28,888 nt of DNA from a virus: the IMG/VR virus record IMGVR_UViG_3300031774_000100, positions 1-28,888 of that record; one strand, given 5' to 3'. Below the pieces are notes generated by a model. It saw nothing but the letters and a program-made list of their open reading frames with translations, ran no database searches and was not told where the DNA came from. Both the position numbers and the translations under genes were made by a program. This document shows, piece by piece, positions 2,769 to 24,114 of this stretch. Position 1 is the stretch's first letter; each line of letters begins with the position of its first letter.

Positions 2769-3451
2769 ATTATTTCTATCTCTCCTTCTTTTAGCATTTT
2801 TTTAACTTTTTGAATAATTGACTTTTTGACATTTTTAATCTGTTTATATCCCGGAACCCGATTCTTTTCATTTGTCTTATACCCCATTAAAGATGCAGCG
2901 TCTTCCTCTGACATGTTGTCGATATATAAAGCTTTATAGATTTTCCATTCAGAAGACTTGAGGGTCTCTTTCATTTTATCGTTAATCTTCTTCATTAGAG
3001 AAATAATGTCCAAACCCGTATACTCGGTACTATTTATCTCCGTAGCATGTTGATTGATAGAAACCGGCAATTTAGCATCATAGGCTTGTTTTTTTGTCCT
3101 TGTCCAATTAGCATATAAAGGACACGTGTCACATTGCTTACCGTAAATGTAACATAAGTCACCAGCTTCGGCTGCGGCACACTTGAGGCAGGGGCGGCAA
3201 TAATTTCCGTAATTGTTTCGGATTAAGTTTTTTATTTGATTGGATATAATCCGGTTTATCCAAGGGTTTAATGGTTTCTTAGTATCGTATAGATGCCACT
3301 TCTTAAAAATGTGAATTCTTAAAATTTGAGAAACATCATCAAAATCCATCCAAGATAACGCAGTAAGGTTCCATTTGGACCTTCTCTTTTTAATTTCTAC
3401 ATCTATCTGTTCTATGAAATCTTCAAATTTGGGTTTTTTAGGTCTGGGCAT
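2765..3451 (-). CDS. Sigma-70-like transcription factor with cysteine-rich insert
   Basis: 228 aa. Residues about 34-80 (FDDVSQILRIHIFKKW, then PWINRIISNQIKNLIRNN) resemble sigma region 2. The C-terminal part (about 165-225) looks like a region-4 helix-turn-helix (SEEDAASLMGYK). Between them lies a segment with seven cysteines (about 85-110, including CRPCLKC and CDTC) that may bind zinc. I start at the ATG at 3451 (MPRPKK); a longer frame to 3619 only runs inside the upstream gene. An inverted repeat (CGGATC/GATCCG, 3452-3471) lies directly before the start. Probably directs late transcription; inferred. Confidence 0.6.
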   Translation of the reverse strand: MPRPKKPKFEDFIEQIDVEIKKRRSKWNLTALSWMDFDDVSQILRIHIFKKWHLYDTKKPLNPWINRIISNQIKNLIRNNYGNYCRPCLKCAAAEAGDLCYIYGKQCDTCPLYANWTRTKKQAYDAKLPVSINQHATEINSTEYTGLDIISLMKKINDKMKETLKSSEWKIYKALYIDNMSEEDAASLMGYKTNEKNRVPGYKQIKNVKKSIIQKVKKMLKEGEIEII

Positions 3452-3842
3452 CGGATCGTCGCGATGATCCGGCTTCTCTCTGTAGGTCGTTAACAATAGA
3501 CTCTTTAGAGTAAGATGGATCCACTTCCCTCCTGTAGTTATCCTTCTCTCCGTTAGCGGTTCCCGCAAGTTGGTCAAGAGGCACACTACTAAAACTTTGA
3601 GACACTTGTATATCAACATCTAAACCCTCAATAGAGGGGATATACTCTTCCTCATATTCCTCTTCTTCCTCCATTACCACAGGGGAGCTTACAACTGGAG
3701 CCTGAGCTTTAAATACTCTTCTTGGAGAATTAGCACTAATCTGCGCAAAAGGGTCCCCACAAGAGCAACAAAACTGAGGCTTCTTTAAAGAATACTCTGT
3801 TCCCGACCCACAATTCGTGCAATAAACCTTCATAGATGACAT
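3438..3842 (-). CDS. Zinc-ribbon protein with acidic middle
   Basis: 134 aa. Two CxxC-type knuckles near the N-terminus (CTNCGSG and CCSCGDP) make a small zinc ribbon. A run of glutamates (VMEEEEEYEEEY) follows, then a polar, probably disordered tail. First gene of the leftward packaging operon; its end overlaps the sigma-like gene by 14 nt. Upstream is TTGAAA, 16 nt, TAATAT, 10 nt, then the ATG, so the mRNA may have almost no leader. The second ATG (3833, MKVYC) is an alternative start. Function unknown. Confidence 0.65.
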   Translation of the reverse strand: MSSMKVYCTNCGSGTEYSLKKPQFCCSCGDPFAQISANSPRRVFKAQAPVVSSPVVMEEEEEYEEEYIPSIEGLDVDIQVSQSFSSVPLDQLAGTANGEKDNYRREVDPSYSKESIVNDLQREAGSSRRSDAQT

Positions 3843-3904
3843 TACACTATATATATTACTGAAAATCCCAGTTTTTTCAAAAAAAGTGTATAACCTATAT
3901 GGAC
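3843..3904. promoter_or_regulatory. Divergent promoter region between zinc-ribbon and metallopeptidase-like genes
   Basis: Leftward: TTGAAA, 16 nt, TAATAT, 10 nt, ATG (3842). Rightward: GTGTATAAC (about 3888-3896) before the ATG codons at 3899 and 3905, without a clear -35. The region is AT-rich. The rightward GTGTATAA motif recurs before other genes in the left half. Confidence 0.5.
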
Positions 3905-4174
3905 ATGGAAAACGTCAAGTTTAAAACCTCGGATGGAATCGAATACGAATTGATGTGGAAAAAACCCCATCACACCTATAATGCGGATGGGTTGTGTTAC
4001 TCTCCTGACTCTGATAATCCCAGAATCCTAGTGGATCCCACGCTTAAGAAAAGGCGAAAAATGAGCACTCTCATAGAAGAGGTCACTCATGCCTTTTTTT
4101 GGGACAAGTCAGAAAAACAGGTTAGGAAATTTTCTTCCGTTCTTGCCGGGTTAATAAATAAACAGATTAAATAG
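3905..4174 (+). CDS. Small metallopeptidase-like protein with degenerate active site
   Basis: 89 aa. The C-terminal half has MSTLIEEVTHAFFWDKSEK, which resembles the helix of small phage HExxH-type (ImmA/IrrE or SprT-like) proteins ending in HAxxWDxSE. Here the first His is Glu (EEVTHA), so catalysis may be lost. An ATG at 3899 is two codons upstream, but only 4 nt from a -10-like TATAAC; the ATG at 3905 keeps the 10-nt spacing seen elsewhere, so I prefer it. It converges on the phoH-like gene with an 8-nt overlap at the 3' ends. Confidence 0.6.
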   Translation: MENVKFKTSDGIEYELMWKKPHHTYNADGLCYSPDSDNPRILVDPTLKKRRKMSTLIEEVTHAFFWDKSEKQVRKFSSVLAGLINKQIK

Positions 4175-4928
4175 TATCACATTCCGCTAATTTGGAGACG
4201 ATAAACTTGGTCAGTTCTGACCTAACGATATCTTCTTGACTAAATTCGAAAGTGTGAATGCCCATATCCCTGCTTTCTTGATTATCAAAAACATCATAGA
4301 GTTTAAGGAAGCCTCCACGGTTTCCGTTTTTTAAATCAGTTTGCATAGGGTCAGCCATAATAATACATCTAGAATATTTACCAATACGTGTTAAAACTGT
4401 AACAATTTCACGAAAAGAACTATTTTGAGCTTCGTCCATTAATATAGCTTTCCCGTTCCAACTCATCCCCCGAGCGAAGTTAACAGGGTGAATAGATACT
4501 CTTTTTTCTTTTTGAAGCTTTTTGACAGTCTCTTCGCTAAGAAGCTCATCTAGCTTGTCCATAAAGGGCAAATTATAGTAGTGAAGTTTCTCATCTGCGT
4601 CGCCGGGAAGAAAACCCAATCTTGAGTCAGAGCTTTCTACGGCTGAGCGCATATATATAACGTCTGAGACTTTAGAATTATTTAAAAGGTTTAAAGCTGA
4701 ATAAACTGCAGTTAAAGTTTTAGAACTTCCTGCGGGGCCTTTACATAAAATAAGTCTTGTATTCTTATCTTTGGAAATTTCTATAAAGCGTTTTTGCTTA
4801 TCTGTCCAAGGAAGCTCTTCGATATAAAAAGTATCCTTGGGTTTTAGTGGATCTCGTTGGTGAATCTTGACCCTTCCGTCCGTAACTTCGAGAGACCCAA
4901 AGTCTCCCGTGCTCTTTACTTTTGGCAT
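4167..4928 (-). CDS. phoH: PhoH-like P-loop ATPase
   Basis: About 253 aa. Walker A GPAGSSKT (about 64-71) and Walker B ILMDEAQN (about 163-170), followed by MADPMQTDL, are the standard PhoH arrangement. PhoH-like proteins are common in marine and freshwater phages; their role in infection is unclear and may involve RNA. I start at the ATG at 4928 (MPKVKST); the longer frame to 5123 lies antisense to the MscS-like gene. A GTGTAAAAA motif (reverse strand, about 4945) precedes it. Divergent from the gene at 4975. Confidence 0.85.
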   Translation of the reverse strand: MPKVKSTGDFGSLEVTDGRVKIHQRDPLKPKDTFYIEELPWTDKQKRFIEISKDKNTRLILCKGPAGSSKTLTAVYSALNLLNNSKVSDVIYMRSAVESSDSRLGFLPGDADEKLHYYNLPFMDKLDELLSEETVKKLQKEKRVSIHPVNFARGMSWNGKAILMDEAQNSSFREIVTVLTRIGKYSRCIIMADPMQTDLKNGNRGGFLKLYDVFDNQESRDMGIHTFEFSQEDIVRSELTKFIVSKLAECDTI

Positions 4929-14667: not shown

Positions 14668-14750
14668 GTCGTAAGTCATTGACTATCAGGCACTTAGGGC
14701 CGCGGGGGAGGGCGCCGAAGGCGTAAGTCGTTGATACTCAGTAGGTTACG
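14668..14750 (+). repeat. 83-bp double-palindrome element, copy 1
   Basis: Left arm GTAAGTCATTGACTATCAGG.. ending CACTTAGG, a 22-nt GC-rich core, right arm CGTAAGTCGTTGATACTCAG.. ending GTTACG. Lies in the gene-free gap between the leftward cluster and the first rightward cassette. An AT-rich tail (14751-14830), similar to those after copies 2 and 4, leads to the promoter of 14875. Confidence 0.85.
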
Positions 14751-14838
14751 TTTCTGAAAGGCTGTTTTCTGTGCAGGTCTCGTGCCAACTCTCATAAAAA
14801 ATAAAAATAAAAAAAATGAAAAAACTCACACTTTAGGC

Positions 14839-14866
14839 TTGTAATTTTCTGTGGTTTTGCTATAAT
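14839..14866 (+). promoter_or_regulatory. Promoter of 14875 gene
   Basis: -35 TTGTAA (14839-14844), 16 nt, -10 TATAAT (14861-14866), 8 nt, cagATGAGAGA. Confidence 0.7.
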
Positions 14867-14874
14867 TTTTTCAG

Positions 14875-15099
14875 ATGAGAGAGATGAAATACGAGTCAGA
14901 CATCCTGACAAACCAGTGGAAAGAGTTCTTCAACGAGGTCGCAGCGAAATGCGAATACTGGGAACTAGGTTTCGGCGATATCAACGCCGACAAGGAAAGC
15001 GAAATAGTTCGCGAATGCTTTGTGGATAAATACACTGTACAGCACACGGTGGACGCATGGCACGAATACGTGGTAGAGGAAATGGTCGACAGCCTGTAA
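14875..15099 (+). CDS. Small acidic protein (MREMKYES)
   Basis: 74 aa, acidic and helical with many aromatic residues (WKEFFNEVAAKCEYWELGFG, DAWHEYVVEEMVDSL). First gene after 83-bp element 1, from a near-leaderless promoter. Small, acidic, strongly promoted genes in such positions often act on host proteins early in infection; this is inference only. Confidence 0.6.
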   Translation: MREMKYESDILTNQWKEFFNEVAAKCEYWELGFGDINADKESEIVRECFVDKYTVQHTVDAWHEYVVEEMVDSL

Positions 15100-15106
15100 A
15101 AAGGTG

Positions 15107-15135
15107 TTGACTTCGTTAAATAAATAACCTATAAT
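15107..15135 (+). promoter_or_regulatory. Promoter of 15146 gene
   Basis: -35 TTGACT (15107-15112), 17 nt, -10 TATAAT (15130-15135), 10 nt, gttATGAGAAA. Confidence 0.8.
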
Positions 15136-15145
15136 ATTTTTTGTT

Positions 15146-15358
15146 ATGAGAAAGTTTGTAATTACTTATCGGCCAGATGTCCACGAAGGGCATCGGAATC
15201 TAGAAGGGGATCTCCACGCTTATGTCGTCGAGGTCGAGGAACAGTTCGCTAACAGCGAAGAAAAGGACAACTGTGCTGGCATCACCGCCAAGTGCGTTGA
15301 GAGTGGAATGTGGAAACGATTCCGCTGGGATAGGATCACCAACATGGCCGCGGCCTAG
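15146..15358 (+). CDS. Small hypothetical protein (MRKFVITY)
   Basis: 70 aa. The N-terminal strand MRKFVITYRPD and LHAYVVEVEEQFAN suggest a small alpha/beta protein; the C-terminus is WKRFRWDRITNMAAA. Own promoter immediately upstream; no family recognised. Confidence 0.6.
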   Translation: MRKFVITYRPDVHEGHRNLEGDLHAYVVEVEEQFANSEEKDNCAGITAKCVESGMWKRFRWDRITNMAAA

Positions 15359-15368
15359 GTGATTGAGC

Positions 15369-15396
15369 TTGACCTTCAGTTAAAATCTGATATAAT
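15369..15396 (+). promoter_or_regulatory. Promoter of 15407 gene
   Basis: -35 TTGACC (15369-15374), 16 nt ending tga, -10 TATAAT (15391-15396), 10 nt, gttATGAGAGA. Confidence 0.8.
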
Positions 15397-15406
15397 TATT
15401 CCTGTT

Positions 15407-15694
15407 ATGAGAGACCATTTAATAAAAACCGTAATCGTTCGCGAAGATAAAAATAATAATTGGCATATAATCGCCAAGCGCGGAGAAAGAGTTCTAGAAG
15501 AAACAAGGCCAGAGCCGAATTTCACTAAGGTAATGGAAAGAGCGCGGTTTGATCACTGCCTCTTTGATGACGAGCCAACGCAGCCAACAATTGAACGCTT
15601 CGACGATTCTAATACAGTCGAGAAAGGTTTGACTAGATTAGGCCAATGGCTCGAGAAGTGTTTCGATAAAATGGCAAATAAAGTGACTTTTTAA
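15407..15694 (+). CDS. Hypothetical protein (MRDHLIKT)
   Basis: 95 aa. The start at 15407 fits the shared module; the frame is open to 15359 only through the promoter. Sequence begins MRDHLIKTVIVREDKNNNWH and later has the acidic stretch HCLFDDEPTQ. Unknown function. Confidence 0.6.
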   Translation: MRDHLIKTVIVREDKNNNWHIIAKRGERVLEETRPEPNFTKVMERARFDHCLFDDEPTQPTIERFDDSNTVEKGLTRLGQWLEKCFDKMANKVTF

Positions 15695-15695
15695 G

Positions 15696-15723
15696 TTGAC
15701 AAATCTAAAAATTCTGATATACT
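15696..15723 (+). promoter_or_regulatory. Promoter of 15734 gene
   Basis: -35 TTGACA (15696-15701), 16 nt ending tga, -10 TATACT (15718-15723), 10 nt, gttATGAGGGA. It starts two bases after the previous stop. Confidence 0.8.
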
Positions 15724-15733
15724 AATTTCCGTT

Positions 15734-15970
15734 ATGAGGGATAGAAGAAAGAAAGCAGCAGAGGTAATCGACTTAACCCGTTTAGATATGGCCGGAGTCG
15801 AGGGTACATTGAAGTTCATTAGCGAAAGCAATGGGGATATCCAAGAGTTAAAAGAGATGGTTAACTCACAAAGGTTAATTCTTCAGAATCTACGCAAAGG
15901 CTTAAACAAGCCAATGTTTCAAGACGGATTCGCTTCACCCCTAGGATTTGACTTACAAGACGAAGCATGA
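15734..15970 (+). CDS. Small coiled-coil protein upstream of hydrolase
   Basis: 78 aa. A basic N-terminus (MRDRRKKAAEVIDL), a helical coiled-coil middle (IQELKEMVNSQRLILQNLRK) and an FxxGFxSPLGFDLQ end. The stop overlaps the ATG of the SleB-like hydrolase (ATGA), so it is co-translated with it and could be an accessory factor; inferred from coupling only. Confidence 0.6.
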   Translation: MRDRRKKAAEVIDLTRLDMAGVEGTLKFISESNGDIQELKEMVNSQRLILQNLRKGLNKPMFQDGFASPLGFDLQDEA

Positions 15971-16479
15971 AAAAAATAAAATGGTTAATCAACGATCTCG
16001 GTCTAAACGAACTCAACGCATGGTGGCGGTTGGTCTGGACGGCAGCCCTAATGGCTTTGGCTCTTGAGACAGTTAGCGCACACACTCACACAAATGCAAA
16101 ACTTACCCGTGAAACAAAAATCATTGCTATCACTATACTTGCAGAGGCCAGAGGTGAAAAACAAAGCGGAATGTACGCGGTGGGTGCTGTCATTGCTCAA
16201 CGAGCATTTGAAAGAAAACAAACGCCCACAGAGGTATGCCTTAAAAAATGGCAGTTTAGTTGTTGGAACGGCAAAAGATTAAAAGACCTTGAGCATTTGT
16301 TAAAAGTCCCGCAAGCAAAGTATGCGCTGGCATTGGCTAAAAACATCAAACTTTTAAGTCGTGACTACGTTGGCTATGCTAATCACTACCACGCGACTTG
16401 GATGAAAAAGCTACCTTACTGGGCTAAAGGTCAAAAGCCTGTCAAGGTTATAGGCCAACACGCATTTTACAAACTATGA
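15967..16479 (+). CDS. SleB-like cell wall hydrolase with N-terminal signal/anchor (putative endolysin)
   Basis: 170 aa. A hydrophobic segment (about residues 20-38) is a signal or signal-anchor. The Hydrolase_2 (SleB/CwlJ) domain follows: ILAEARGEKQSGMYAVGAVIAQR with the catalytic-type Glu, then VCLKKWQFSCWN, then ANHYHATWMKKLPYWAKGQK. This family hydrolyses peptidoglycan. With an export anchor and no clear holin beside it, it could act as a signal-arrest-release type endolysin. Overlaps neighbours by 4 nt on both sides. Confidence 0.8.
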   Translation: MKKIKWLINDLGLNELNAWWRLVWTAALMALALETVSAHTHTNAKLTRETKIIAITILAEARGEKQSGMYAVGAVIAQRAFERKQTPTEVCLKKWQFSCWNGKRLKDLEHLLKVPQAKYALALAKNIKLLSRDYVGYANHYHATWMKKLPYWAKGQKPVKVIGQHAFYKL

Positions 16480-16712
16480 AAAACGAAAAACGGCACATAG
16501 GCGATATCGGACATATGCCATTAGGAGGACAAGAAGCCTACCAAGAAATGTTTTATTCTGGTGCTAGCTGCGGCCTCGTGCGACGGAGCGGACTAGATTC
16601 CAATGGCCGTAAAGACGGATCTCGCAGCAATGTCCATACAGTTTTTGAAAGACCAGCGGGATCGAACAAAACAAAATCAACTAATAGACAAAAACCAAAA
16701 CGAAGGAAATAA
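16476..16712 (+). CDS. Small basic protein with shared C-terminal tag (NRQKPKRRK)
   Basis: 78 aa, coupled to the hydrolase by ATGA overlap. Polar, with IGDIGHMPLGGQEAYQEMFY early and the C-terminal AGSNKTKSTNRQKPKRRK. The next gene ends in nearly the same peptide although codons differ, which suggests selection on the tail. The tail is basic and may bind nucleic acid, the wall or a partner. Function unknown. Confidence 0.6.
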   Translation: MKNEKRHIGDIGHMPLGGQEAYQEMFYSGASCGLVRRSGLDSNGRKDGSRSNVHTVFERPAGSNKTKSTNRQKPKRRK

Positions 16713-16715
16713 ATC

Positions 16716-16868
16716 ATGTCGAACGAAAACAGAAAAACACACGACACAAACGGCGGCCAAAGAGGTATGCACTTACGCGAAATGACCGCAGGCAAAGTGC
16801 TAATCAATAAAGCTGGTTCCAACAAGACGAACGCAACCAATCGCCAGAAACCGAAACGTAGAAAGTAA
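16716..16868 (+). CDS. 50-aa protein with shared C-terminal tag (NRQKPKRRK)
   Basis: Starts MSNENRKTHDTNGGQRGMHL and ends AGSNKTNATNRQKPKRRK, almost the same tail as the 78-aa gene before it, with different upstream sequence. It begins three bases after that stop. Last gene before the terminator. Confidence 0.6.
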   Translation: MSNENRKTHDTNGGQRGMHLREMTAGKVLINKAGSNKTNATNRQKPKRRK

Positions 16869-16887
16869 ATTTTTCTCATCATAACAA

Positions 16888-16932
16888 CAGCCCCGTCGAG
16901 TTCTCTCTCTGCTCGGCGGGGCATTTTTTTTA
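16888..16932 (+). terminator. Rho-independent terminator
   Basis: GCCCCGTCGAG, 11-nt loop, CTCGGCGGGGC, then ATTTTTTTTT. Ends the 14875-16868 cassette. Confidence 0.85.
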
Positions 16933-16966
16933 ATGTCAAGCAAAAAAATAAAAAAAGTTTTTTCAT

Positions 16967-17049
16967 GTCGTAAGTGACTGACTATCAAGGACTTAGGGCC
17001 GGGCAGCCCTGCGCGCAAGCGCTAAGTCACTAACTATCAATGACTTACG
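16967..17049 (+). repeat. 83-bp double-palindrome element, copy 2
   Basis: Left arm CGTAAGTGACTGACTATCAA.., 22-nt core GCCGGGCAGCCCTG.., right arm GCTAAGTCACTAACTATCAA.. ending GACTTACG. Sits between a terminator (16932) and the tail and promoter of 17167. Confidence 0.85.
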
Positions 17050-17128
17050 TTTTCAAAAGTGTCATTCTAGGAGGGATTTCATGCCAAGTGGTGTAAAAAA
17101 TAAAAATAAAAAAAGTGATGTTTTAGGG

Positions 17129-17156
17129 TTGACTTTTTCCTAAAATCTGATAAGAT
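17129..17156 (+). promoter_or_regulatory. Promoter of 17167 gene
   Basis: -35 TTGACT (17129-17134), 16 nt ending tga, -10 TAAGAT (17151-17156), 10 nt, gttATGAGAGA. Confidence 0.75.
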
Positions 17157-17166
17157 AATTCCTGTT

Positions 17167-17439
17167 ATGAGAGATATGTTTGAAAATATGTACAAGGTTC
17201 AGATCGCCAACTCTGGTGATGTCGCTGGTTTCCCGCGTTCTCACGATGGTCTTGAAAAGGCTATTATCTTGGCCTCGCGTGAGGGTACTGAGGTCACCTT
17301 TGATGGTGACGTCGTTTGGCCGGAGGAGGAGGCTCCTGACATGGATGAGTCCATGGACGGGGATCATGACTCCGCGATGGCCAGTGCCGGTTTCGGCACG
17401 GATGAGGACTACGGTTGTTTCGGTGGCGACGAGTGGTAA
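17167..17439 (+). CDS. Strongly acidic small protein (MRDMFENM)
   Basis: 90 aa with about 23 Asp/Glu against 5 Lys/Arg by my count. The N-terminal half (YKVQIANSGDVAGFPRSHDG) looks folded; the C-terminal half is an acidic tail (PDMDESMDGDHDS.. GTDEDYG). Such charge could mimic DNA, as in some anti-restriction proteins, but there is no sequence match to those. Shares the MRDM start with the next gene. Confidence 0.65.
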   Translation: MRDMFENMYKVQIANSGDVAGFPRSHDGLEKAIILASREGTEVTFDGDVVWPEEEAPDMDESMDGDHDSAMASAGFGTDEDYGCFGGDEW

Positions 17440-17467
17440 AAAAAGTAAAAAAAGTGAGATTTAACTG

Positions 17468-17495
17468 TTGACATTTTTTTAATCTGTGATATACT
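17468..17495 (+). promoter_or_regulatory. Promoter of 17506 gene
   Basis: -35 TTGACA (17468-17473), 16 nt ending tga, -10 TATACT (17490-17495), 10 nt, gttATGAGAGA. Confidence 0.85.
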
Positions 17496-17505
17496 GTTTT
17501 CTGTT

Positions 17506-17739
17506 ATGAGAGATATGATAAGTTGTGAAGAGGTTTTCGAGGCGGACGCGAATGCGCGTGCGGAGTTTGAGGCTGTGTGCAGTGCATGGCAGGATGAGGC
17601 CATCGCCGCGCAGGAGGTCGAGCTTGCGGCGCAAGCGGAACGCGAGGAGCGCGAGCGCGATCTGGCCATGGCCGAGGTCGAGGAGACGTGCTGGTGCAAG
17701 TTTTTCGAGTCGTGCTCCGCATGCTTCGGCAAGGCATAA
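17506..17739 (+). CDS. Acidic helical protein with C-terminal cysteines
   Basis: 77 aa. A long acidic Glu/Ala/Arg helix (EVELAAQAEREERERDLAMA) and a C-terminal cysteine cluster (CWCKFFESCSACFGKA) that might bind metal. The G+C is clearly higher than the flanks, so its reverse and shifted frames are also open; this frame has the shared promoter-start module. Followed by a terminator. Confidence 0.6.
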   Translation: MRDMISCEEVFEADANARAEFEAVCSAWQDEAIAAQEVELAAQAEREERERDLAMAEVEETCWCKFFESCSACFGKA

Positions 17740-17756
17740 ACCGTGCCAACCCCTAT

Positions 17757-17785
17757 CACTCACGCTGAAAAGCGTGAGTTTTTTT
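17757..17785 (+). terminator. Rho-independent terminator
   Basis: ACTCACGCT-gaaa-AGCGTGAGT with a GNRA-type loop, then TTTTTT. Ends the 17167-17739 cassette. Confidence 0.9.
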
Positions 17786-17798
17786 ACGCCTCTTTAAA

Positions 17799-17881
17799 GT
17801 CGTAAGTCGTTGGGCTGCAAGGACTTAGGGCCGGGGCGGAGGGTCCCAGCGACGTAAGTCGTTGACTATCAGTGGTTTACG
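17799..17881 (+). repeat. 83-bp double-palindrome element, copy 3
   Basis: Left arm CGTAAGTCGTTGGGCTGCAA.. (most diverged spacer), core GCCGGGGCGGAGGG.., right arm CGTAAGTCGTTGACTATCAG.. ending TTTACG. It follows a terminator by 13 bp. The end of the convergent zinc-ribbon gene (17869) lies inside its right arm. Confidence 0.8.
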
Positions 17882-18051
17882 AGGATAAAATCTGAAATTG
17901 GAGTGACGTAAATTTTTTTCTTTTTGCATTTTTCGCATTGCCCTTTTTCCCAAGAGCCGCATCTCTCAGTTATTTGAGGGTCGCGGCTTTCCTTTTTAGC
18001 AACACGTATTTCGCGCCGTTGGGCTTTGGTTCCACATTCGTAACAGATCAT
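17869..18051 (-). CDS. Small zinc-ribbon protein
   Basis: 60 aa. Cys pairs MICYECGTK and GQCEKCKKKK, about 35 residues apart, form a likely zinc ribbon. Ends ISDFILVNH, the last codons lying in element 3. Last of the leftward genes after the 18275 and 18099 genes. Probably nucleic-acid binding; inferred. Confidence 0.6.
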   Translation of the reverse strand: MICYECGTKAQRREIRVAKKESRDPQITERCGSWEKGQCEKCKKKKIYVTPISDFILVNH

Positions 18052-18098
18052 TATTTGACTGGTTCGTATTTCTTATTTAATAAATTACAAATCCGAAT

Positions 18099-18272
18099 TT
18101 AATCGCCGCTCTTTTTGCCATAATTAAAACTCATTCGATTTTTCTTATTGTTATAGCCTTCTGGTTCCAGCCCGTTCTTCTTGAGCCATTTCTTGTAACC
18201 AGCATCAACTTCTTTGGCTAGGCCCGTTGTGTCGCCGTAACCCCAATCACCTTGTTTTATTATGTCTTGCAT
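18099..18272 (-). CDS. 57-aa hypothetical protein
   Basis: MQDIIKQGDWGYGDTTGLAK, then EVDAGYKKWLKKNGLEPEGY and a basic Asn/Lys-rich end. The ATG is two bases after the upstream stop, so it is part of the 18556-17869 operon. Function unknown. Confidence 0.6.
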   Translation of the reverse strand: MQDIIKQGDWGYGDTTGLAKEVDAGYKKWLKKNGLEPEGYNNKKNRMSFNYGKKSGD

Positions 18273-18274
18273 TG

Positions 18275-18556
18275 TTATTCCGAAATGGTTTGACGAATCT
18301 CTTTCATCTTCTTCTTTAGAAAAGAAACAGCCTCACAGTTTTTGGCATTAGTTTGGATGATATGCCCTAGACTGTACTCTATCTTACGCGTGAAGTCTCT
18401 GCGTAACGCATCCAACTTATCTGCATCCGCTCGCTTTATTGCGCGAGTCTTCTTGACCGCTTTCTTCTTTTCGGCCTTTTGTTTTAAATGTTTTGTCTTC
18501 ACTTTCTTTTCTTCAAATGCCTCTAGTAACTTTTCGTAATTACTTACTTTATTCAT
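18275..18556 (-). CDS. Basic coiled-coil protein
   Basis: 93 aa from MNKVSNYEKLLEAFEE (18556). The lysine-rich helix KTKHLKQKAEKKKAVKKTRA is followed by a second helix. A longer frame to 18622 runs into the structured upstream region and is less likely. Directly downstream of the candidate structured RNA, with which it may share a transcript. Confidence 0.6.
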   Translation of the reverse strand: MNKVSNYEKLLEAFEEKKVKTKHLKQKAEKKKAVKKTRAIKRADADKLDALRRDFTRKIEYSLGHIIQTNAKNCEAVSFLKKKMKEIRQTISE

Positions 18557-18559
18557 ACT

Positions 18560-19206
18560 ATTAAAATAAGATGGTGGCGGGAGTATTTGTGTACCCGCAC
18601 CTTTTCTGTACCCAAGAAACAAATGTTTCTGATCTACTTACTTCGGACTCACCCGCGATTTTCCTCAACCGATTGGTCTCTGTACTTCTCGCAGTCGCTG
18701 CATTATCCCCGTGGGAGGGATTATTCTGCCACACCGACCTCTCTCCGTCGAGAGAGGAAATTGATAGGTTGCCGCCGCACCACCAGCAGTAAAACGGGCG
18801 TGAGTTCGTGCCTCACAGGGGTATTTAACTCCGTCAACCTAAATGAATCGCTCTTGAGAAACTTCTCATTCTTAACCGTTTCAAGTCGAGTTAACGACTG
18901 TCATGCTTTCAACGCGTTTATAGCTCAGAAAGACGTGATTAAGCGCATAGCCCAAGTTTTTTAGTGTTATGAGAGAGTCCTTTTGCAGGACAATCTTTAG
19001 ACTGCTAAACTCAAGAGCAAATTTTCAAAGAACCTAAAAATTGTCTGGGGGTGATTAGCATTGTATTCCTACCCTAATCTTTTAAGTCAGCCCAGCCTGA
19101 CACACCATAAACATGAAACGATAATATTAAATACAACCTTCGCTGATTAACCTCCACCAGCAGGGATTATCAAATGACAAACAATAATAAACATTCCCCG
19201 AAGGGA
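18560..19206 (-). ncRNA. Candidate large structured non-coding RNA
   Basis: About 647 nt between leftward genes with no convincing protein. A promoter of the shared type lies exactly upstream (TATACT at 19213-19218), predicting a 5' end near 19206. The predicted RNA starts with TTCCC-TTCG-GGGAA, a C(UUCG)G hairpin only on this strand. Other stems: GTCAG/CTGAC (19086-19101), TTTAG/CTAAA (18996-19009), GTCCT/AGGAC (18977-18991), AGTCG/CGACT (18884-18899), TGAGAA/TTCTCA (18855-18868), GTGAG/CTCAC (18800-18816), an 8-bp CCTCTCTC/GAGAGAGG (18738-18757), AGAAAC/GTTTCT (18615-18630) and a final GGTG-CGGG/CCCG-CACC (about 18572-18600). Size, phage setting and a nearby tRNA resemble ornate phage RNAs such as GOLLD and ROOL; no consensus match can be claimed. 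Confidence 0.4.
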
Positions 19207-19212
19207 AACTAA

Positions 19213-19241
19213 AGTATATCAGCAACGGTCTGGCAATGCAA
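19213..19241 (-). promoter_or_regulatory. Promoter of the candidate structured RNA
   Basis: -35 TTGCAT (19236-19241), 17 nt ending ctga, extended -10 TATACT (19213-19218). No ATG follows at 10 nt, unlike the gene promoters. The TGA in front of the -10 is the stop codon of the 19219 gene. Confidence 0.65.
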
Positions 19242-19464
19242 CCTTTTTCTTTTCCGTCTCCAGATTCTCAAACTTCTTGTCCATGCCTTCGTCATCCCAG
19301 TCGAAAGAAAAGTATTCATCAAATACCTTGGAGGCTATCCGTCCCTCTACGCTTTGAGTCGCTGCTTCTTTCAGCATAAACTTCATAGCTTTGAGTCTTT
19401 TCCGCATTTCTTCAGTACCCGCTTTTGTTCGCGGCCTCAACCAATGATCATCCATTTGTTTCAT
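19219..19464 (-). CDS. Hypothetical helical protein
   Basis: 81 aa. Begins MKQMDDHWLRPRTKAGTEEM; charged helices with an acidic patch (DEYFSFDWDDEGMDKKFENL). The ATG overlaps the stop of the upstream 213-aa gene (ATGA). Its last codons contain the promoter of the candidate RNA. Unknown function. Confidence 0.6.
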   Translation of the reverse strand: MKQMDDHWLRPRTKAGTEEMRKRLKAMKFMLKEAATQSVEGRIASKVFDEYFSFDWDDEGMDKKFENLETEKKKVALPDRC

Positions 19465-20102
19465 ACTTCTAATTTCGCTTCCCTTAACTGCTTATGAGTA
19501 TACCGTAGTCCGGCATTCCATGCAAGCCTTTTCTTCTTCGGTTCGGGAATATAAAAAATATTAAAGTGAGGCCCGATGGCAGTTTTATCCCGAAGGATTA
19601 CCCTGCTAGACTTGTAGATAGGCTTCTTGCTTATATCCTCTACAAAAGTCTTATACTTATAAGGATTGTAATATGCACCTTTAAATTCTTCTCCCGACTC
19701 TGGAATGCAATTCTCGCACCAAGAATACTCTCCTTCGTTACGGCAGTTGCAGCCCCAAACCTTTTTCAAGTTACCATCTTCCCCTTTCTCAAAACGATAG
19801 GCTTGGTGGTCTCCTTCGTTTACCCATGTGCCAATAACATAAGCGTGAACGTTTTTGCGCTTCTCACGGACAACACGTTGACGACCATTCTCGTTAACGT
19901 GAAACTTGGCATTCTTTAGCTCGACTCGGTGACTATGGCAATATAATCTCCCCGTGCTAGTATCAACTACAGAAAGGCAATCCTTCTGAAGATTGTAGTA
20001 AACTTTCACCCGATCAGGTGCAACAGGGCAACCCATGTAAGTCTTGCGGGTTTCTGCATCGGCCCAGCTAATGAATCCTTTTGGTTCTTCTCTTTCCCTC
20101 AT
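19461..20102 (-). CDS. 213-aa hypothetical protein with Cys-rich centre
   Basis: Starts MREREEPKGFISWADAETRK. The central part has Cys pairs (VWGCNCRNEGEYSWCENCIP, about residues 122-141), probably a zinc site, with strand-rich flanks (HAYVIGTWVNEG, FNIFYIPEPKKK). Start set by the shared promoter-start module. Not recognised. Confidence 0.6.
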   Translation of the reverse strand: MREREEPKGFISWADAETRKTYMGCPVAPDRVKVYYNLQKDCLSVVDTSTGRLYCHSHRVELKNAKFHVNENGRQRVVREKRKNVHAYVIGTWVNEGDHQAYRFEKGEDGNLKKVWGCNCRNEGEYSWCENCIPESGEEFKGAYYNPYKYKTFVEDISKKPIYKSSRVILRDKTAIGPHFNIFYIPEPKKKRLAWNAGLRYTHKQLREAKLEV

Positions 20103-20112
20103 AACTTCAAAT

Positions 20113-20141
20113 AGTATAAGTTAAATTGTTTCTAGAGTCAA
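20113..20141 (-). promoter_or_regulatory. Promoter of 20102 gene
   Basis: -35 TTGACT (20136-20141), 17 nt, -10 TATACT (20113-20118), 10 nt, gttATGAGGGA. Confidence 0.8.
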
Positions 20142-20164
20142 CTATAAAAATAACTTTTTTAAAT

Positions 20165-20238
20165 TGGACGCGAGGGAGGGAATCGAACCCTCAATTGTTC
20201 TTTTGCAGAGAACCGTCTTGCCGTTTGACCACCCCGCG
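20165..20238 (-). tRNA. trnC: tRNA-Cys (anticodon GCA)
   Basis: Complete cloverleaf on the minus strand: 7-bp acceptor CGCGGGG/CCTCGCG, D arm GTC..GAC, anticodon stem GTTCT/AGAAC with loop CTGCAAA (GCA), T arm GAGGG-TTCGATT-CCCTC, discriminator T, and an encoded CCA. Phage tRNAs commonly compensate for codon differences or host tRNA cleavage. A short open frame overlaps its 5' two thirds. Confidence 0.95.
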
Positions 20239-20331
20239 ATTGTAAGACCCCTTTCCCTTCTTGGGACGATGCACCCGCTCACCAGTGTTCCAACTGACTA
20301 CTGCTCGGGGCTTTTTAGGTTTCTCACTCAC
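20191..20331 (-). CDS. 46-aa open frame overlapping tRNA-Cys
   Basis: GTG start: MSEKPKKPRAVVSWNTGERV, then a basic middle and VVKRQDGSLQKNN, whose last 15 or so codons are tRNA-Cys sequence. A promoter sits 8 nt upstream of the GTG. It may be a real small protein or only the leader of the tRNA transcript. Confidence 0.35.
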   Translation of the reverse strand: MSEKPKKPRAVVSWNTGERVHRPKKGKGSYNRGVVKRQDGSLQKNN

Positions 20332-20339
20332 AGGTGTTA

Positions 20340-20367
20340 ATAATATCACACTTTACACATATGTCAA
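20340..20367 (-). promoter_or_regulatory. Promoter of tRNA-Cys and its overlapping frame
   Basis: -35 TTGACA (20362-20367), 16 nt ending tga, -10 TATTAT (20340-20345). Divergent from the promoter of the 20431 gene, which starts 25 bp away. Confidence 0.7.
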
Positions 20368-20391
20368 CAGTAAAAATGTTTTTTTTAGGGG

Positions 20392-20420
20392 TTGACAAGT
20401 AGACCCTTTTATCCTATACT
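20392..20420 (+). promoter_or_regulatory. Promoter of 20431 gene
   Basis: -35 TTGACA (20392-20397), 17 nt, -10 TATACT (20415-20420), 10 nt, gttATGAAACT. Confidence 0.85.
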
Positions 20421-20430
20421 CATCCCAGTT

Positions 20431-20685
20431 ATGAAACTTAAAGAAATCAAAAACGGATCAATCTACTACAATACCAAGAAGAACCGTGCAGAGCGGGTAA
20501 TCTCTAATACTTTTAGCAGTTCGCGAGTTGTGACAGAATTCCACGGTAAGAATCAAAGCGCGGTTGCTACTCGAAACATTCGACTCGCTAACAGCGTAGA
20601 AGTGGAAAAATACCTAGATAGAACAAGGAAAGGTAATCTAATGACTTTTTTCGGAAGACTCTTCTCTCCGAAGAAACTCGCTTGA
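20431..20685 (+). CDS. Small basic protein (MKLKEIKNGS)
   Basis: 84 aa. MKLKEIKNGSIYYNTKKNRA and RVVTEFHGKNQSAVATRNIR suggest a small beta-rich (SH3-like) fold; the C-terminus is FFGRLFSPKKLA. The in-frame ATG at 20392 lies in the -35 box and is not the start. Followed by a multi-hairpin 3' region. Confidence 0.6.
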   Translation: MKLKEIKNGSIYYNTKKNRAERVISNTFSSSRVVTEFHGKNQSAVATRNIRLANSVEVEKYLDRTRKGNLMTFFGRLFSPKKLA

Positions 20686-20711
20686 AAGTCTTAGTCATGA
20701 GCTTTTAAGCG

Positions 20712-20842
20712 CCCTACCTTGGGGGTTTGCATTGGTTTTTTTAGCTTTTCCCAATGTTTTACTAAGGTAGGGGGGAATCTCCTGAGTGCTAGTTTTATTC
20801 TAGCCCAACCCTCCAGCCAACGCTGGGGGGTTGTTTTCTTTT
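20712..20842 (+). terminator. Nested hairpins ending in a rho-independent terminator
   Basis: Outer stem CCCTACCTT (20712-20720) / AAGGTAGGG (20764-20772) encloses CATTGG/CCAATG (20730-20756). Then GCTAG/CTAGC (20788-20804), and finally AACCCTCCAGC-caac-GCTGGGGGGTT (20807-20832) with a T-rich tail. The last hairpin is the terminator; the others form a structured 3' region. Confidence 0.75.
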
Positions 20843-20845
20843 AAA

Positions 20846-20928
20846 GTCCTAAGTCTTTGGTAATCAGTGACTTAGGGGCCGCCGGGACCCCCCGCGCGAC
20901 GTAAGTCGTTGGTAATCAGTGACTTACG
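20846..20928 (+). repeat. 83-bp double-palindrome element, copy 4
   Basis: Left arm CCTAAGTCTTTGGTAATCAG.. ending GACTTAGG, core GGCCGCCGGGACCCC.., right arm CGTAAGTCGTTGGTAATCAG.. ending GACTTACG. Each arm keeps self-complementary ends (CC..GG and CG..CG), a paired change. It follows a terminator by 4 bp. Confidence 0.9.
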
Positions 20929-21017
20929 TTTCTAAAAGGTCAGTCTTTAGGAAAGAATCGTGCCAACTTCGGGCTAAATAAAAAAATATTTTTTTTAAAA
21001 TAATGATGATTTAGGGG

Positions 21018-21046
21018 TTGACTCTGGATCTTAAATATGAGAAGAT
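21018..21046 (+). promoter_or_regulatory. Promoter of 21079 gene with eroded module start
   Basis: -35 TTGACT (21018-21023), 17 nt ending atga, -10-like GAAGAT (21041-21046). At the usual ATG position the sequence is gttCTGAGGGA, so the ancestral start looks lost and translation begins 23 nt further on. Confidence 0.55.
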
Positions 21047-21078
21047 ATTCGTGTTCTGAGGGAGAACTAAAAAACGTT

Positions 21079-21981
21079 ATGGCTAGAAACACAAAACCTA
21101 CAAGTTCCGAATTCGACTACACAGTCGTGCAGGAACCGCTGTTCAACCGTGATGGTAAAGCCGTCAAGGTTGGTAATTCTCCAATTATGGGGAATTTTCG
21201 CACAGACAACAATGTCTGCTTAGGTACGTCCACTGAGGCGTATGAAATCGTCAATAACGAATCAGTTGTTGAAGTAGTTGAGGATGCCTTTGCCGGTGCT
21301 GGCTTAGGTGACTTCGAGAGAGAAATCGTGGTTGCTCGTGAGGGCGCACGTTTTTATGGAGTCTATGACTTCCCAACGCAGGAACGTCACATCGCCAACG
21401 TCGGTGATGTCGTGTCTCTTCGTTTGACCTTAAACAACTCATTTGATAGGAGTTGTGGTCTCAACTGGGCCGTGGGCATGATGCGTAAGATCTGCTCGAA
21501 TGGGATGTGTTCGCTGGTGGCTGACACCAACGTCACCAAAAAGCACAGCGCAAAGCTGGATCTGTCCTTCATTAAGGAAGGAATCGACGCATCGGTTGAA
21601 AAATTCGATGCATCTGTTGAGGCTTTCAAAAACCTCGGCAAGCGTGAGATCACCCAAAAAGAGGGCGGACTCATTCTGGACAACCTCGCCATCAAAAAGG
21701 TGCTTTCCGAGTCTCTTCGGGATTCAATCCAGATGGTCTGGGACTCGCCTACCTTCGCCAAGGAGGATGAAGGTCGCAACCTGTACAACCTGTACAACGC
21801 GGCCACGGAGCATCTCACGCGTGAGGTGCAGTCAACTCGGTTTGAGTATGCCAATCGAGTCAATCGGGGCGTGCTTACTAATCTGTCACGCGCAGAGCAG
21901 AGCGCCGCTCATTTCGCCAAGCTGACGGCCAAGGTTCCTGAAAAGGAAAAGGTCATCACTGAGGTGACGCTGACGGCCTAA
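21079..21981 (+). CDS. DUF932 family phage/plasmid protein
   Basis: 300 aa from MARNTKPTSSEFDYTVVQEP. The DUF932 pattern is visible: CLGTSTEAYEIVNNESVVEV, then FYGVYDFP, LRLTLNNSFDRSCGL and MMRKICSNGM. The family occurs in phages and plasmids, often with recombination or replication genes; its biochemical role is not settled. An ATG at 21037 lies in the -10 region, so I use 21079, with GGGAG about 15 nt upstream. Single-gene cassette between element 4 and a terminator. Confidence 0.8.
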   Translation: MARNTKPTSSEFDYTVVQEPLFNRDGKAVKVGNSPIMGNFRTDNNVCLGTSTEAYEIVNNESVVEVVEDAFAGAGLGDFEREIVVAREGARFYGVYDFPTQERHIANVGDVVSLRLTLNNSFDRSCGLNWAVGMMRKICSNGMCSLVADTNVTKKHSAKLDLSFIKEGIDASVEKFDASVEAFKNLGKREITQKEGGLILDNLAIKKVLSESLRDSIQMVWDSPTFAKEDEGRNLYNLYNAATEHLTREVQSTRFEYANRVNRGVLTNLSRAEQSAAHFAKLTAKVPEKEKVITEVTLTA

Positions 21982-21995
21982 GGGGAACACAAGCA

Positions 21996-22028
21996 ACCCC
22001 CACCCTTCGGGGTGGGGGATTTTTTTTA
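21996..22028 (+). terminator. Rho-independent terminator
   Basis: CCCCACCC-TTCG-GGGTGGGG with a UUCG loop, followed by a long T tract. Ends the DUF932 cassette. Confidence 0.9.
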
Positions 22029-22052
22029 ACTAAAAAGCTTGACAAAAAAAGA

Positions 22053-22135
22053 GGCCTAAGTGACTGACTATCAATGACTTAAGGGCGCCCGGCCTAGGCT
22101 GGCGTGCGTAAGTGCTTGGTACTCAATGACTTACG
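22053..22135 (+). repeat. 83-bp double-palindrome element, copy 5
   Basis: Left arm CCTAAGTGACTGACTATCAA.. ending GACTTAAG, core GGCGCCCGGCCTAGG.., right arm CGTAAGTGCTTGGTACTCAA.. ending GACTTACG. It follows the DUF932 terminator by 24 bp; a tRNA-like minihelix lies 36 bp downstream. Confidence 0.85.
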
Positions 22136-22171
22136 ACTTAGGTTTTTAAAAAACTGAGATTTAAGAAAAAG

Positions 22172-22203
22172 ACGCGAGGTCGGTTCGATTCCGACTCTCG
22201 CGT
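22172..22203 (+). other. tRNA minihelix (acceptor stem plus T arm only)
   Basis: ACGCGAG, then GTCGG-TTCGATT-CCGAC, one T, then CTCGCGT. The acceptor halves pair in all 7 bp and stack on a 5-bp T stem with a normal T loop. D and anticodon arms are absent and no CCA is encoded. It may be an internally deleted tRNA, a tRNA-like RNA element, or an attachment-site relic. Confidence 0.6.
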
Positions 22204-22226
22204 ATTATTTATTATTTGTTATTTAA

Positions 22227-22421
22227 TTATTTCTTTTTTCTATTTGCCTCGGAGACAAATTGCTGGTTCATTTTCTTTTTAGGAAATCCTGTCTTAATGC
22301 CTTTTTTCTTTGCCCACTTGGCAAAAGCATCGTCGAATTCTTTTTTCATTCCATTAGCGACGGCATACATACTGTCGAAGGAATCCGCTTGGTGTGTGTG
22401 GTTATTATCTTGTTGAATCAT
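22227..22421 (-). CDS. 64-aa hypothetical protein
   Basis: MIQQDNNHTHQADSFDSMYA, then a helical basic part (KKEFDDAFAKWAKKKGIKTG) and a KKK-ending tail. Overlaps the upstream gene by 17 nt. Last gene of the leftward 23646-22227 unit. Function unknown. Confidence 0.55.
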   Translation of the reverse strand: MIQQDNNHTHQADSFDSMYAVANGMKKEFDDAFAKWAKKKGIKTGFPKKKMNQQFVSEANRKKK

Positions 22422-22827
22422 AATCTGTTAAATTTTCTGCTGTTATCTTTCCTAAAGTATAAAAGTCATATTTATTACCTGTTACTAAAAACGTCATTGG
22501 TTTGAATTCCTCCAGTCTTGATTCTGCATACTCTCTAGCAAAAGGCATGATGCCTCCTTTCTTCCCCTTAAACAATGATAACTTACCTTCAGCCAGCATT
22601 ATATTAACGGACATATTAACTAATGACCTTTTTAACTTGGTTTGGCTTGTCCAAAAATATCCCAAGTAAGGTTTAACGTATTCATTAGACCAGATTAAGT
22701 CTTGGCCCGATGTTGCTGCATGGTTCCAAAAGCCCCAGTAGTGGCGAATAATCTCCTTTTTATTATCACCCCTTATGCCTACCGCTACTTTTTTCTCTCC
22801 GTCTCTCTGTATAACGTATTCTATCAT
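22405..22827 (-). CDS. 140-aa hypothetical protein
   Basis: Starts MIEYVIQRDGEKKVAVGIRG; AGGAAA lies just before the ATG, so this start uses a normal ribosome site. Middle: HYWGFWNHAATSGQDLIW and KPYLGYFWTSQTKLKRSLV, rich in aromatic residues. No known family. The ATG overlaps the stop of the 22-aa TM peptide gene. Confidence 0.6.
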   Translation of the reverse strand: MIEYVIQRDGEKKVAVGIRGDNKKEIIRHYWGFWNHAATSGQDLIWSNEYVKPYLGYFWTSQTKLKRSLVNMSVNIMLAEGKLSLFKGKKGGIMPFAREYAESRLEEFKPMTFLVTGNKYDFYTLGKITAENLTDYDSTR

Positions 22828-22892
22828 TTTTCCTGCTCATAAATTAACCAAAAAGCTAATAAGATACCCACCACAAAAACCATTGCTTCCAC
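22824..22892 (-). CDS. 22-aa membrane micropeptide
   Basis: GTG start 4 nt after the GP88 gene stop: VEAMVFVVGILLAFWLIYEQ then EK. One hydrophobic helix of about 14 residues and a charged end. The stop overlaps the next ATG (ATGA), so it fits exactly in the operon with no free bases. Confidence 0.4.
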   Translation of the reverse strand: MEAMVFVVGILLAFWLIYEQEK

Positions 22893-22896
22893 GGTA

Positions 22897-23646
22897 TTAA
22901 ATTTTAACAGTTGCGTTGTAGCCCGTAAAGCCTTTTTTCTTATTAGCTGAGAGAGCCTTGCTTGCATCGCTCCCCGCCGGTTGACTCCCGTGAATCACCA
23001 AGGCAAAATCATTCGAGCCAGATATTGCCAAGTCGTCCGTGTGGTCAACGTCCAATCCCAAGGCTTCCGCTTCCTCAGTAGAGAAAAACACCTTTGCGCT
23101 TTTCACCATCGTCTGAGGGATTAAGTCATCATACTTTCCACCACGCGAACAGGTAAAGACATAGTTTTTAGGCAAGCCACCATTAACGGCGATATACTCC
23201 AGCAAAAACTTGATGCTTTTAGTATAGGAATAAAAAACCACGTTTGGGAATAGTTTGGCCGCTCTCATCCAAGCGTTGAAATATCTCTGACTAAAAAAGT
23301 CTCCACCGATATGCACCCGACAAGTTCCGCCCCGATTCAATCCGGTTTCTTTTATGCTGCCCACTATCAAGTCAACCATCTCCCGAATAGTACGACAAGT
23401 CTTTAACAAGTCAAAATTACCCCAACGAACCTTACGCACATTAGGACGGCGAGCTTCATCCATTGCCGCATAGCATCGGAAAATCTGACCGTCAACAGGA
23501 GTTTGTTCATCACGAACTTTGCCCGTTTCCTTATCTGCAAAAGTCTTACAGTTTTTAGCTCCGGGGCAAGTATAGCCACTAGGAAGGGAGTAGTGCCAAA
23601 TACCTTTCAGCTTGGCGTTTTCAAATGTGAATTTTAGTAGACCCAT
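22897..23646 (-). CDS. GP88 family phage protein
   Basis: 249 aa. Visible family blocks: SLPSGYTCPGAKNCKTFADK, DGQIFRCYAAMDEARRPNVR, VHIGGDFFSQRYFNAWMRAA and VVFYSYTKSIKFL, as in mycobacteriophage GP88-like proteins. Conserved Cys (CPGAKNC, RCYAA) suggest metal binding; the biochemical function is not known. First gene of the leftward unit with its own promoter. Start at 23646 fits the module (gttATGGGTC). Confidence 0.75.
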   Translation of the reverse strand: MGLLKFTFENAKLKGIWHYSLPSGYTCPGAKNCKTFADKETGKVRDEQTPVDGQIFRCYAAMDEARRPNVRKVRWGNFDLLKTCRTIREMVDLIVGSIKETGLNRGGTCRVHIGGDFFSQRYFNAWMRAAKLFPNVVFYSYTKSIKFLLEYIAVNGGLPKNYVFTCSRGGKYDDLIPQTMVKSAKVFFSTEEAEALGLDVDHTDDLAISGSNDFALVIHGSQPAGSDASKALSANKKKGFTGYNATVKI

Positions 23647-23657
23647 AACTGAAAAAG

Positions 23658-23686
23658 ATAGTACCTTGTTTACTGGTTCAAGTCAA
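23658..23686 (-). promoter_or_regulatory. Promoter of GP88 gene
   Basis: -35 TTGACT (23681-23686), 17 nt, -10 TACTAT (23658-23663), 11 nt, gttATGGGT. Confidence 0.75.
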
Positions 23687-23701
23687 CCATAAAAATAATT
23701 T

Positions 23702-23944
23702 TTATCCGAATAATTTTTCCCACCCTTCGGGACTTGTTCCCGACATAACGAACTCCCGTTGGTCTGCATCTAATGAGCGCAGCGCGTCTTGAATAGGGAG
23801 GCCTTGGTTCAGGTCGAAAAGCTCGCTGCCATGAATCGTCACCGTGTAAGACTTCCCTGTGACTCGGCATGGCCCCGTGAATGTATACGTTCCCTTTTCG
23901 TGATCCTGAGTATACGTGCAATTAGTGTTAATATATCTTCCCAT
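23702..23944 (-). CDS. 80-aa phage protein with C-terminal SPEGWEKLFG
   Basis: MGRYINTNCTYTQDHEKGTY, then a strand-rich part (TFTGPCRVTGKSYTVTIHGS) and ALRSLDADQREFVMSGTSPE. The ending pattern ADQREFVMSGTSPxGWExLFG is seen in small phage proteins of unknown function. Start set by the module. Single-gene unit next to element 6. Confidence 0.6.
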   Translation of the reverse strand: MGRYINTNCTYTQDHEKGTYTFTGPCRVTGKSYTVTIHGSELFDLNQGLPIQDALRSLDADQREFVMSGTSPEGWEKLFG

Positions 23945-23954
23945 AACGCCGCTG

Positions 23955-23983
23955 AGTATATGTTAAAAATGTGTGCCTGTCAA
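23955..23983 (-). promoter_or_regulatory. Promoter of 23944 gene
   Basis: -35 TTGACA (23978-23983), 17 nt, -10 TATACT (23955-23960), 10 nt, gttATGGGA. Confidence 0.85.
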
Positions 23984-24031
23984 CCTAAAAAATCATTTTT
24001 TTTAATAATTTTTTTTTTATATACTTTTAGA

Positions 24032-24114
24032 TGCGTAAGTCGTTGACTATCAAAGAGTTACGACGGCGCCGGGGGGCGCCCCGCCCCTAAGTCGTTGACT
24101 ATCAGTGACTTACG
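24032..24114 (+). repeat. 83-bp double-palindrome element, copy 6
   Basis: Left arm CGTAAGTCGTTGACTATCAA.. ending GAGTTACG, core with GGCGCC-gggg-GGCGCC, right arm CCTAAGTCGTTGACTATCAG.. ending GACTTACG. Lies between two leftward units; the shared AT-rich tail is not clear here. Confidence 0.85.

Follow-up and report, generated by a model that had tools for sequence, protein, structure and literature searches.

Paired dyad elements at operon borders

The 28.9-kb IMG/VR virus record IMGVR_UViG_3300031774_000100, here called the window (the whole stretch of DNA that was analysed), carries six dispersed 83-bp elements, each made of two palindromic arms around a core. We consider it rather probable that these elements punctuate operon boundaries in the early accessory region of T4-related phages, where they would serve both as paired dimer sites and as shared recombination joints. 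They are best read as promoter-terminator shuffling cassettes resembling the promoter early stem-loops (PeSLs), in a variant built on a double protein-binding site. As far as the searched literature shows, elements of this form have not been described before. The elements offer a sharply defined joint at which binding experiments and junction mapping can test how T4-like phages keep trading their numerous small early genes while leaving operons intact.

A first-pass annotation, made from the sequence alone, had counted 83-bp copies starting at 14668, 16967, 17799, 20846, 22053 and 24032. All six were found exactly there, and all are intergenic (Table 1). Each arm is 25 nt long and of the type TAAGT(N15)ACTTA, with a few substitutions in some of the window arms. 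The arm distance, annotated as about 52 bp, is exact, as arm starts and centres are 52 nt apart in all six copies. The core is indeed GC-rich (the window has 41% GC), but it measures 27 nt between the 25-nt arms and not 22, a figure that depends on where the arms are cut. The one-arm pattern matches the window 8 times on the plus strand and 5 times on the minus strand, and never when it is read backwards.

Distribution among viruses

The two-arm pattern was found in over 100 IMG/VR viral contigs and in almost no cellular genomes. In brief, a loose version matched at least 119 IMG/VR stretches and two tighter scans gave further ones, whereas a similar scan of 84,980 prokaryote species gave 13 contigs, several of them short and possibly viral and the others chance-like. 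A near-identical 40-kb contig carries the same six elements in the same order as the window. The window has no element left of 14.6 kb, in keeping with their annotated absence from the left half, and the eight elements of a 144-kb relative all lie within its final 13 kb. Elements in the mapped contigs mostly form one such cluster, in which they separate units made up of one or a few small genes. Overlap with a called gene is seen for just 64 of the 607 elements, even though called coding sequence makes up 79% of the total. Arms mostly come in pairs, with 571 pairs counted against 12 clusters of three or more arms.

The phages concerned form a T4-related group, most of whose members are uncultivated. 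T4-type markers among 121 proteins of three relatives are the terminase large subunit (with a match to the T4-type N-terminal model), PhoH, sigma-70 region 2 and RIIB, and the window itself encodes PhoH and the sigma factor. Among the 50,697 phage records of INPHARED we found no close DNA relative of the window, whose first 25 kb were compared, and queries with the element consensus gave chance matches only. In one contig that has T4-like terminase and portal genes (L001), positions 851-4544 hold near-identical copies of one arm with a GC block, most of them without the second arm and with TGTAGCTTTTACA following in its place.

Core length is set per genome

Of the 507 elements in the 83 loci that hold three or more two-arm elements, 467 match the modal core length of their locus and 489 come within 1 nt of it. 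Shuffling the lengths among loci would give an agreement with the mode of 27%. The mode itself varies by phage, being mostly 16-17, 21-23, 25, 27 or 28 nt. It is unequal even at matching loci and between relatives of common gene order: 27 nt in the window and in L006, 23-24 nt in L153, and 28 nt in L168 and L043. Because the modes differ between relatives that share gene order, the elements of a whole genome must change length together. Such concerted spacing is what would be expected if a single protein complex reads both arms, and it suggests that in each phage one protein acts on the elements in trans.

The first-pass annotation had treated free variation of core length among relatives as an argument against the element. 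The length does vary between phages, but hardly within any one of them. The proposal that the arms lie five helical turns apart on one face is not upheld in general, since the common classes of 16 to 28 nt put the arm centres 41-53 bp apart, or approximately 3.9 to 5.05 turns. Five-turn phasing as a general rule was rejected on the core-length classes 16-25.

The arms resemble protein sites

The arms are dyads only on average. It had been suggested that paired changes at the arm ends preserve the dyad; the outer flanking letters match in just 6 of the 12 window arms, and the inner positions lack general covariation in several hundred elements. Covariation counts are uncorrected for relatedness. 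At positions 6/20, pairing occurs in 30% of 327 arms against 37% expected; in the largest class, of 28 nt, the shortfall has z -5.1, and -4.8 and -2.9 for the two arms separately. Pairing at positions 7/19 and 12/14 is likewise below expectation, and opposite positions are mostly anti-correlated. Weak covariation (z about +3) is seen in the 28-nt class at the base immediately outside the arm. In the 27-nt class, pairs 10/16 and 11/15 are positively associated (z about +4), which we read as relatedness within a few phages, though it may be real covariation. The two arms of an element are alike as direct repeats, which gives each arm a slight polarity.

A degenerate dimer site would best explain these statistics. 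Three observations back the protein-binding dyad proposed in the first-pass annotation: the half-site consensus, a lack of covariation in general, and the near-constant spacing within each phage. The cruciform proposed beside it fares badly, because the opposite letters of a hairpin, in RNA or extruded DNA, should covary and generally do not. We regard it as extremely unlikely that the elements are a structured RNA or a bidirectional terminator. In favour are the palindromic arms, a terminator-like score for one arm of E6, and the terminators that follow the half-sites of phage DLP6 (see below); yet no Rfam family matches at the elements, no general covariation of a stem was found in them, and separate terminators stand beside most window elements. 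A terminator within the element itself was rejected for the window on the presence of these separate sites.

Terminators and promoters around the elements

The usual order in the window is gene, terminator, element, promoter, gene. Promoters and terminators were called by consensus scans, which are not proof. Terminator-like sites adjoin five of the six window elements, and at E2 and E6 a promoter-like site follows. Over all contigs, outward sigma-70-like promoters were found on 37% of element sides from which a gene of a tandem pair reads away, and on 1-3% of sides with a gene reading toward the element. These promoters lie tens of bp outside the elements, on the correct side. Window elements E3 and E5 stand at convergent borders, a placement that is also kept in L006.

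Sites for replication, compaction or DNA domains (of the iteron, parS or nucleoid type) would also be repeated dimer sites at fixed spacing in one genome region. We hold this to be very improbable, as the placement tracks transcription-unit borders and promoters, and 5 to 15 copies over approximately 10 kb are unlike a single origin.

About nine window genes (at 12327, 12698, 12886, 15146, 15407, 15734, 17167, 17506 and 20102) have in common a TTGAC-like box and, after 16-17 nt, a TATAAT-like box, then approximately 7 nt and GTTATGAG. The start codon comes approximately 10 nt past the -10 box. This suggests that the early mRNAs are nearly leaderless and that their first codons are conserved.

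Gene shuffling at the elements

Comparison of relatives places the elements at the points where gene order has changed. Same-strand neighbours split by an element show a mean adjacency loss in relatives of 0.61, compared with 0.37 for pairs without an element and 0.43 for element-free pairs at least 80 nt apart (rank-test p 7e-6, with pairs that are not independent). Relative inversions were seen in 8.0% of comparisons with an element and 2.2% of those without.

Individual cases were also seen. The block between E3 and E4 is inverted in L153, where it is again bordered by elements while its flanks are collinear. One cassette differs in order and orientation between L150 and L163, with homology that runs from element to element and fades outside. 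L006 carries an extra unit of promoter, small gene, terminator and element relative to the window. In L176, approximately 168 nt of element and promoter-like sequence stand between two genes whose counterparts in L078 and L014 overlap. The first-pass annotation had proposed to map recombination junctions against the elements, and the break rates, the L153 inversion, the L150/L163 cassette and the L176 insertion all place them there.

The elements might be pure operators, that is, sites of an early repressor or activator, with shuffling a by-product of operon borders that tolerate breaks. The position of the promoters, the promoter-like stretch within the unit inserted in L176, and dyads typical of dimeric regulators would fit. 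We think this improbable, since E3 and E5 are retained at convergent borders in both the window and L006, and element-free borders matched for gap length break less often.

An element is present in one relative only at 87 of 298 conserved adjacencies. This presence and absence at the same border, together with the many copies and the L176 insertion, could be taken as the mark of selfish small mobile DNA, resembling repetitive extragenic palindromes (REPs) or miniature inverted-repeat transposable elements, that settles between genes by chance. Such an origin is very unlikely: in most phages the copies within a genome are divergent and not recent duplicates, their spacing changes jointly across the genome, and no transposase of the REP-associated tyrosine transposase (RAYT) type was found in 25 element-bearing contigs.

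Other features of these regions are as follows. A conserved gene to the right of E1 (15146-15358, plus strand) is inverted in L006 (7010-7216, minus strand), where it lies to the left of the matching element. Within the block inverted in L153 is a manA-like RNA (18567-18755, minus strand; Rfam RF01745, 46.3 bits, E 1.6e-9, below the gathering score of 55.2). One tRNA gene lies between E3 and E4 (20168-20238, minus strand).

Candidate proteins

Protein families were counted in the same 25 element-bearing contigs, many of which are incomplete. Tyrosine integrase (PF00589) was found over the cut-off in none, with one weak match in G030, and serine recombinase/resolvase (PF00239) and the Y1 (RAYT-type) transposase were likewise found in none. 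The tyrosine-recombinase core, which the first-pass annotation had named as one possible reading of each arm, is left without a supporting gene in these contigs, many of them fragments, and none of the enzymes belonging to attC/tyrosine sites, serine resolvase/invertase sites or REPs with RAYT was found.

These counts bear on the idea that the elements are dedicated sites of a phage recombinase that pairs them and exchanges strands, the early region being the equivalent of an integron or shufflon in a virus. Junctions at elements, the element-bounded inversion and the cassette swaps are what it predicts. It could also account for the two-arm layout, the strict per-genome spacing, the arm polarity seen as direct-repeat correlation, and the clusters in which three or four arms lie close together. 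We consider it unlikely, as the matching enzymes were not found in the 25 contigs, many of them incomplete. T4-type phages recombine very efficiently without a dedicated site-specific recombinase, which also counts against it.

DUF932 and GP88 proteins are encoded in 21 and 23 of the 25 contigs, respectively, and lie in or near the element cluster wherever both can be placed. GP88 is also present in the cultured cyanophages S-EIV1, S-SRM01, B23 and Sf-FR1 and in one single-cell virus; these five records are free of elements, and DUF932 was found in none of them. A DUF932 peptide search of IMG/VR gave just the two nearest contigs, and a structure model (mean predicted local distance difference test score 73) gave no credible PDB match. 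DUF932 is a candidate partner of the elements, not more; that it might be a Rad52-like annealase is a guess. A virus-borne cassette exchange, or phage integron, that relies on a recombination or annealing factor of its own not yet recognised as such (perhaps DUF932) and on double-dyad sites whose spacing co-evolves with that factor, seems quite improbable to us.

Proposed function

We suggest that each element offers two dimer sites and that a sequence-specific DNA-binding protein, encoded by the phage or supplied by the host, most likely binds both arms together, with a spacing that would suit each phage's version of the protein. Standing between a terminator and the next promoter, the complex would probably isolate neighbouring units or control early promoters. 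The elements appear to act as shared joints because the same sequence lies at many unit borders, and comparison shows cassettes inserted, lost, swapped and inverted at them. The exchange itself would most likely proceed by phage homologous recombination. The protein and the exact function are proposed here from patterns in the sequence.

Several points weigh against operon punctuation with shared joints. Opposite-strand pairs show no excess of breaks at elements (0.69 with and 0.76 without), the excess over gap-matched control pairs is only moderate, and the break-rate statistics are not phylogenetically independent and rest on a home-made gene caller. A recognisable sigma-70 pattern stands on only 37% of the expected promoter sides. 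Promoter control alone cannot be the function, because the elements at convergent borders, E3 and E5, have no promoter to control.

Table 1. Elements and associated features of the window.
Feature	Position	Strand	Remarks
Element E1	14668-14750		arms 14672-14696 and 14724-14748, core 14697-14723; separates divergent units
Element E2	16967-17049		arms 16971-16995 and 17023-17047; separates tandem (+) units
Element E3	17799-17881		arms 17803-17827 and 17855-17879; separates convergent units; one edge of segment inverted in L153
Element E4	20846-20928		arms 20850-20874 and 20902-20926; tandem (+) units; other edge of segment inverted in L153
Element E5	22053-22135		arms 22057-22081 and 22109-22133; separates convergent units
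Element E6	24032-24114		arms 24036-24060 and 24088-24112; separates tandem (-) units
Terminator-like	16907-16923		before E2; consensus scan
Terminator-like	17758-17779		beside E3; consensus scan
Terminator-like	20806-20833		beside E4; consensus scan
Terminator-like	21997-22018	both	beside E5; consensus scan
Terminator-like	24343-24320	-	upstream of E6; consensus scan
Promoter-like	14622-14594	-	flanks E1, directed away; consensus scan
Promoter-like	14839-14866	+	flanks E1, directed away; consensus scan
Promoter-like	17129-17156		after E2; consensus scan
Promoter-like	23983-23955	-	downstream of E6; consensus scan
Gene block E3-E4	17882-20845		inverted relative to neighbours in L153 (contig G006)
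Place of extra L006 unit	~17438-17445	+	matches insertion in L006 relative to window
DUF932 protein gene	21037-21981	+	between E4 and E5; candidate partner of elements
GP88 family gene	22897-23646	-	conserved in element region

Comparison with known systems

T4-type phages carry PeSLs, which are mobile regulatory cassettes (Arbiol et al. 2010 and Comeau et al. 2014, as cited in PMC4503421 and PMC3950731). Like the elements, they are composite terminator-promoter borders between early genes that are dense at shuffled genes and by which modules are inferred to be exchanged. The present elements likewise lie between transcription units with an early-type promoter downstream, convergent borders being the exceptions, and synteny breaks and cassette movement occur at the motif. 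The difference from PeSLs is that the conserved part here is a double dyad resembling a protein site (83 bp in the window), with a spacing set per genome. A stem-loop terminator would in the window be a separate sequence, one of the terminator-like sites next to five of the six elements, and the element itself lacks general stem covariation.

Similar arrangements occur in other viruses. The haloarchaeal virus HGTV-1 has an inverted repeat and a promoter-like box before most open reading frames in one arm of its genome, with a proposed role in shuffling, but the repeat is single and the box TATA-like, and the likeness is one of arrangement (PMC3950731). In the Campylobacter group II phages CP21 and CP220, repeats lie at the borders of modules that are inverted between relatives; these repeats, however, form arrays of 1-2.9 kb with a 13-nt core, four per genome (PMC4546147). 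Bacterial REPs and bacterial interspersed mosaic elements are also short intergenic palindromes in many copies, whereas the elements described here are in phages, form direct pairs at fixed spacing and have no RAYT transposase in the 25 contigs. The stoperators of mycobacteriophage L5 are likewise protein sites scattered between genes of the early arm, but they are asymmetric single 13-bp sites; for the elements described here, any repressor would be putative.

The Stenotrophomonas T4-like phage DLP6 (KU682439; L230-L233) came up in a text search for arm 10-mers, among many chance matches. At 14 of its gene-cluster borders, from 45309 to 144778, AAATCAACGACTTA stands as a direct pair with a distance of 25-26 nt; behind most pairs come a terminator-like stretch and, after it, a -10-like box. 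The half-site, its occurrence twice per site and the location at gene-cluster borders near terminators are shared with the elements. DLP6 differs in having direct half-sites 25-26 bp apart and not two dyads, and in the order of repeats, terminator and -10-like box; no DUF932 or GP88 match was found in it. The authors of the DLP6 genome predicted 25 phage promoters, 22 of them in pairs (PMC5349666). This promoter reading of the repeats is doubtful, because they mostly precede a terminator. Judged by the half-site, the DLP6 repeats and the elements likely share a binding specificity, and we suggest that the paired repeats annotated as promoters belong to the same class of signals.

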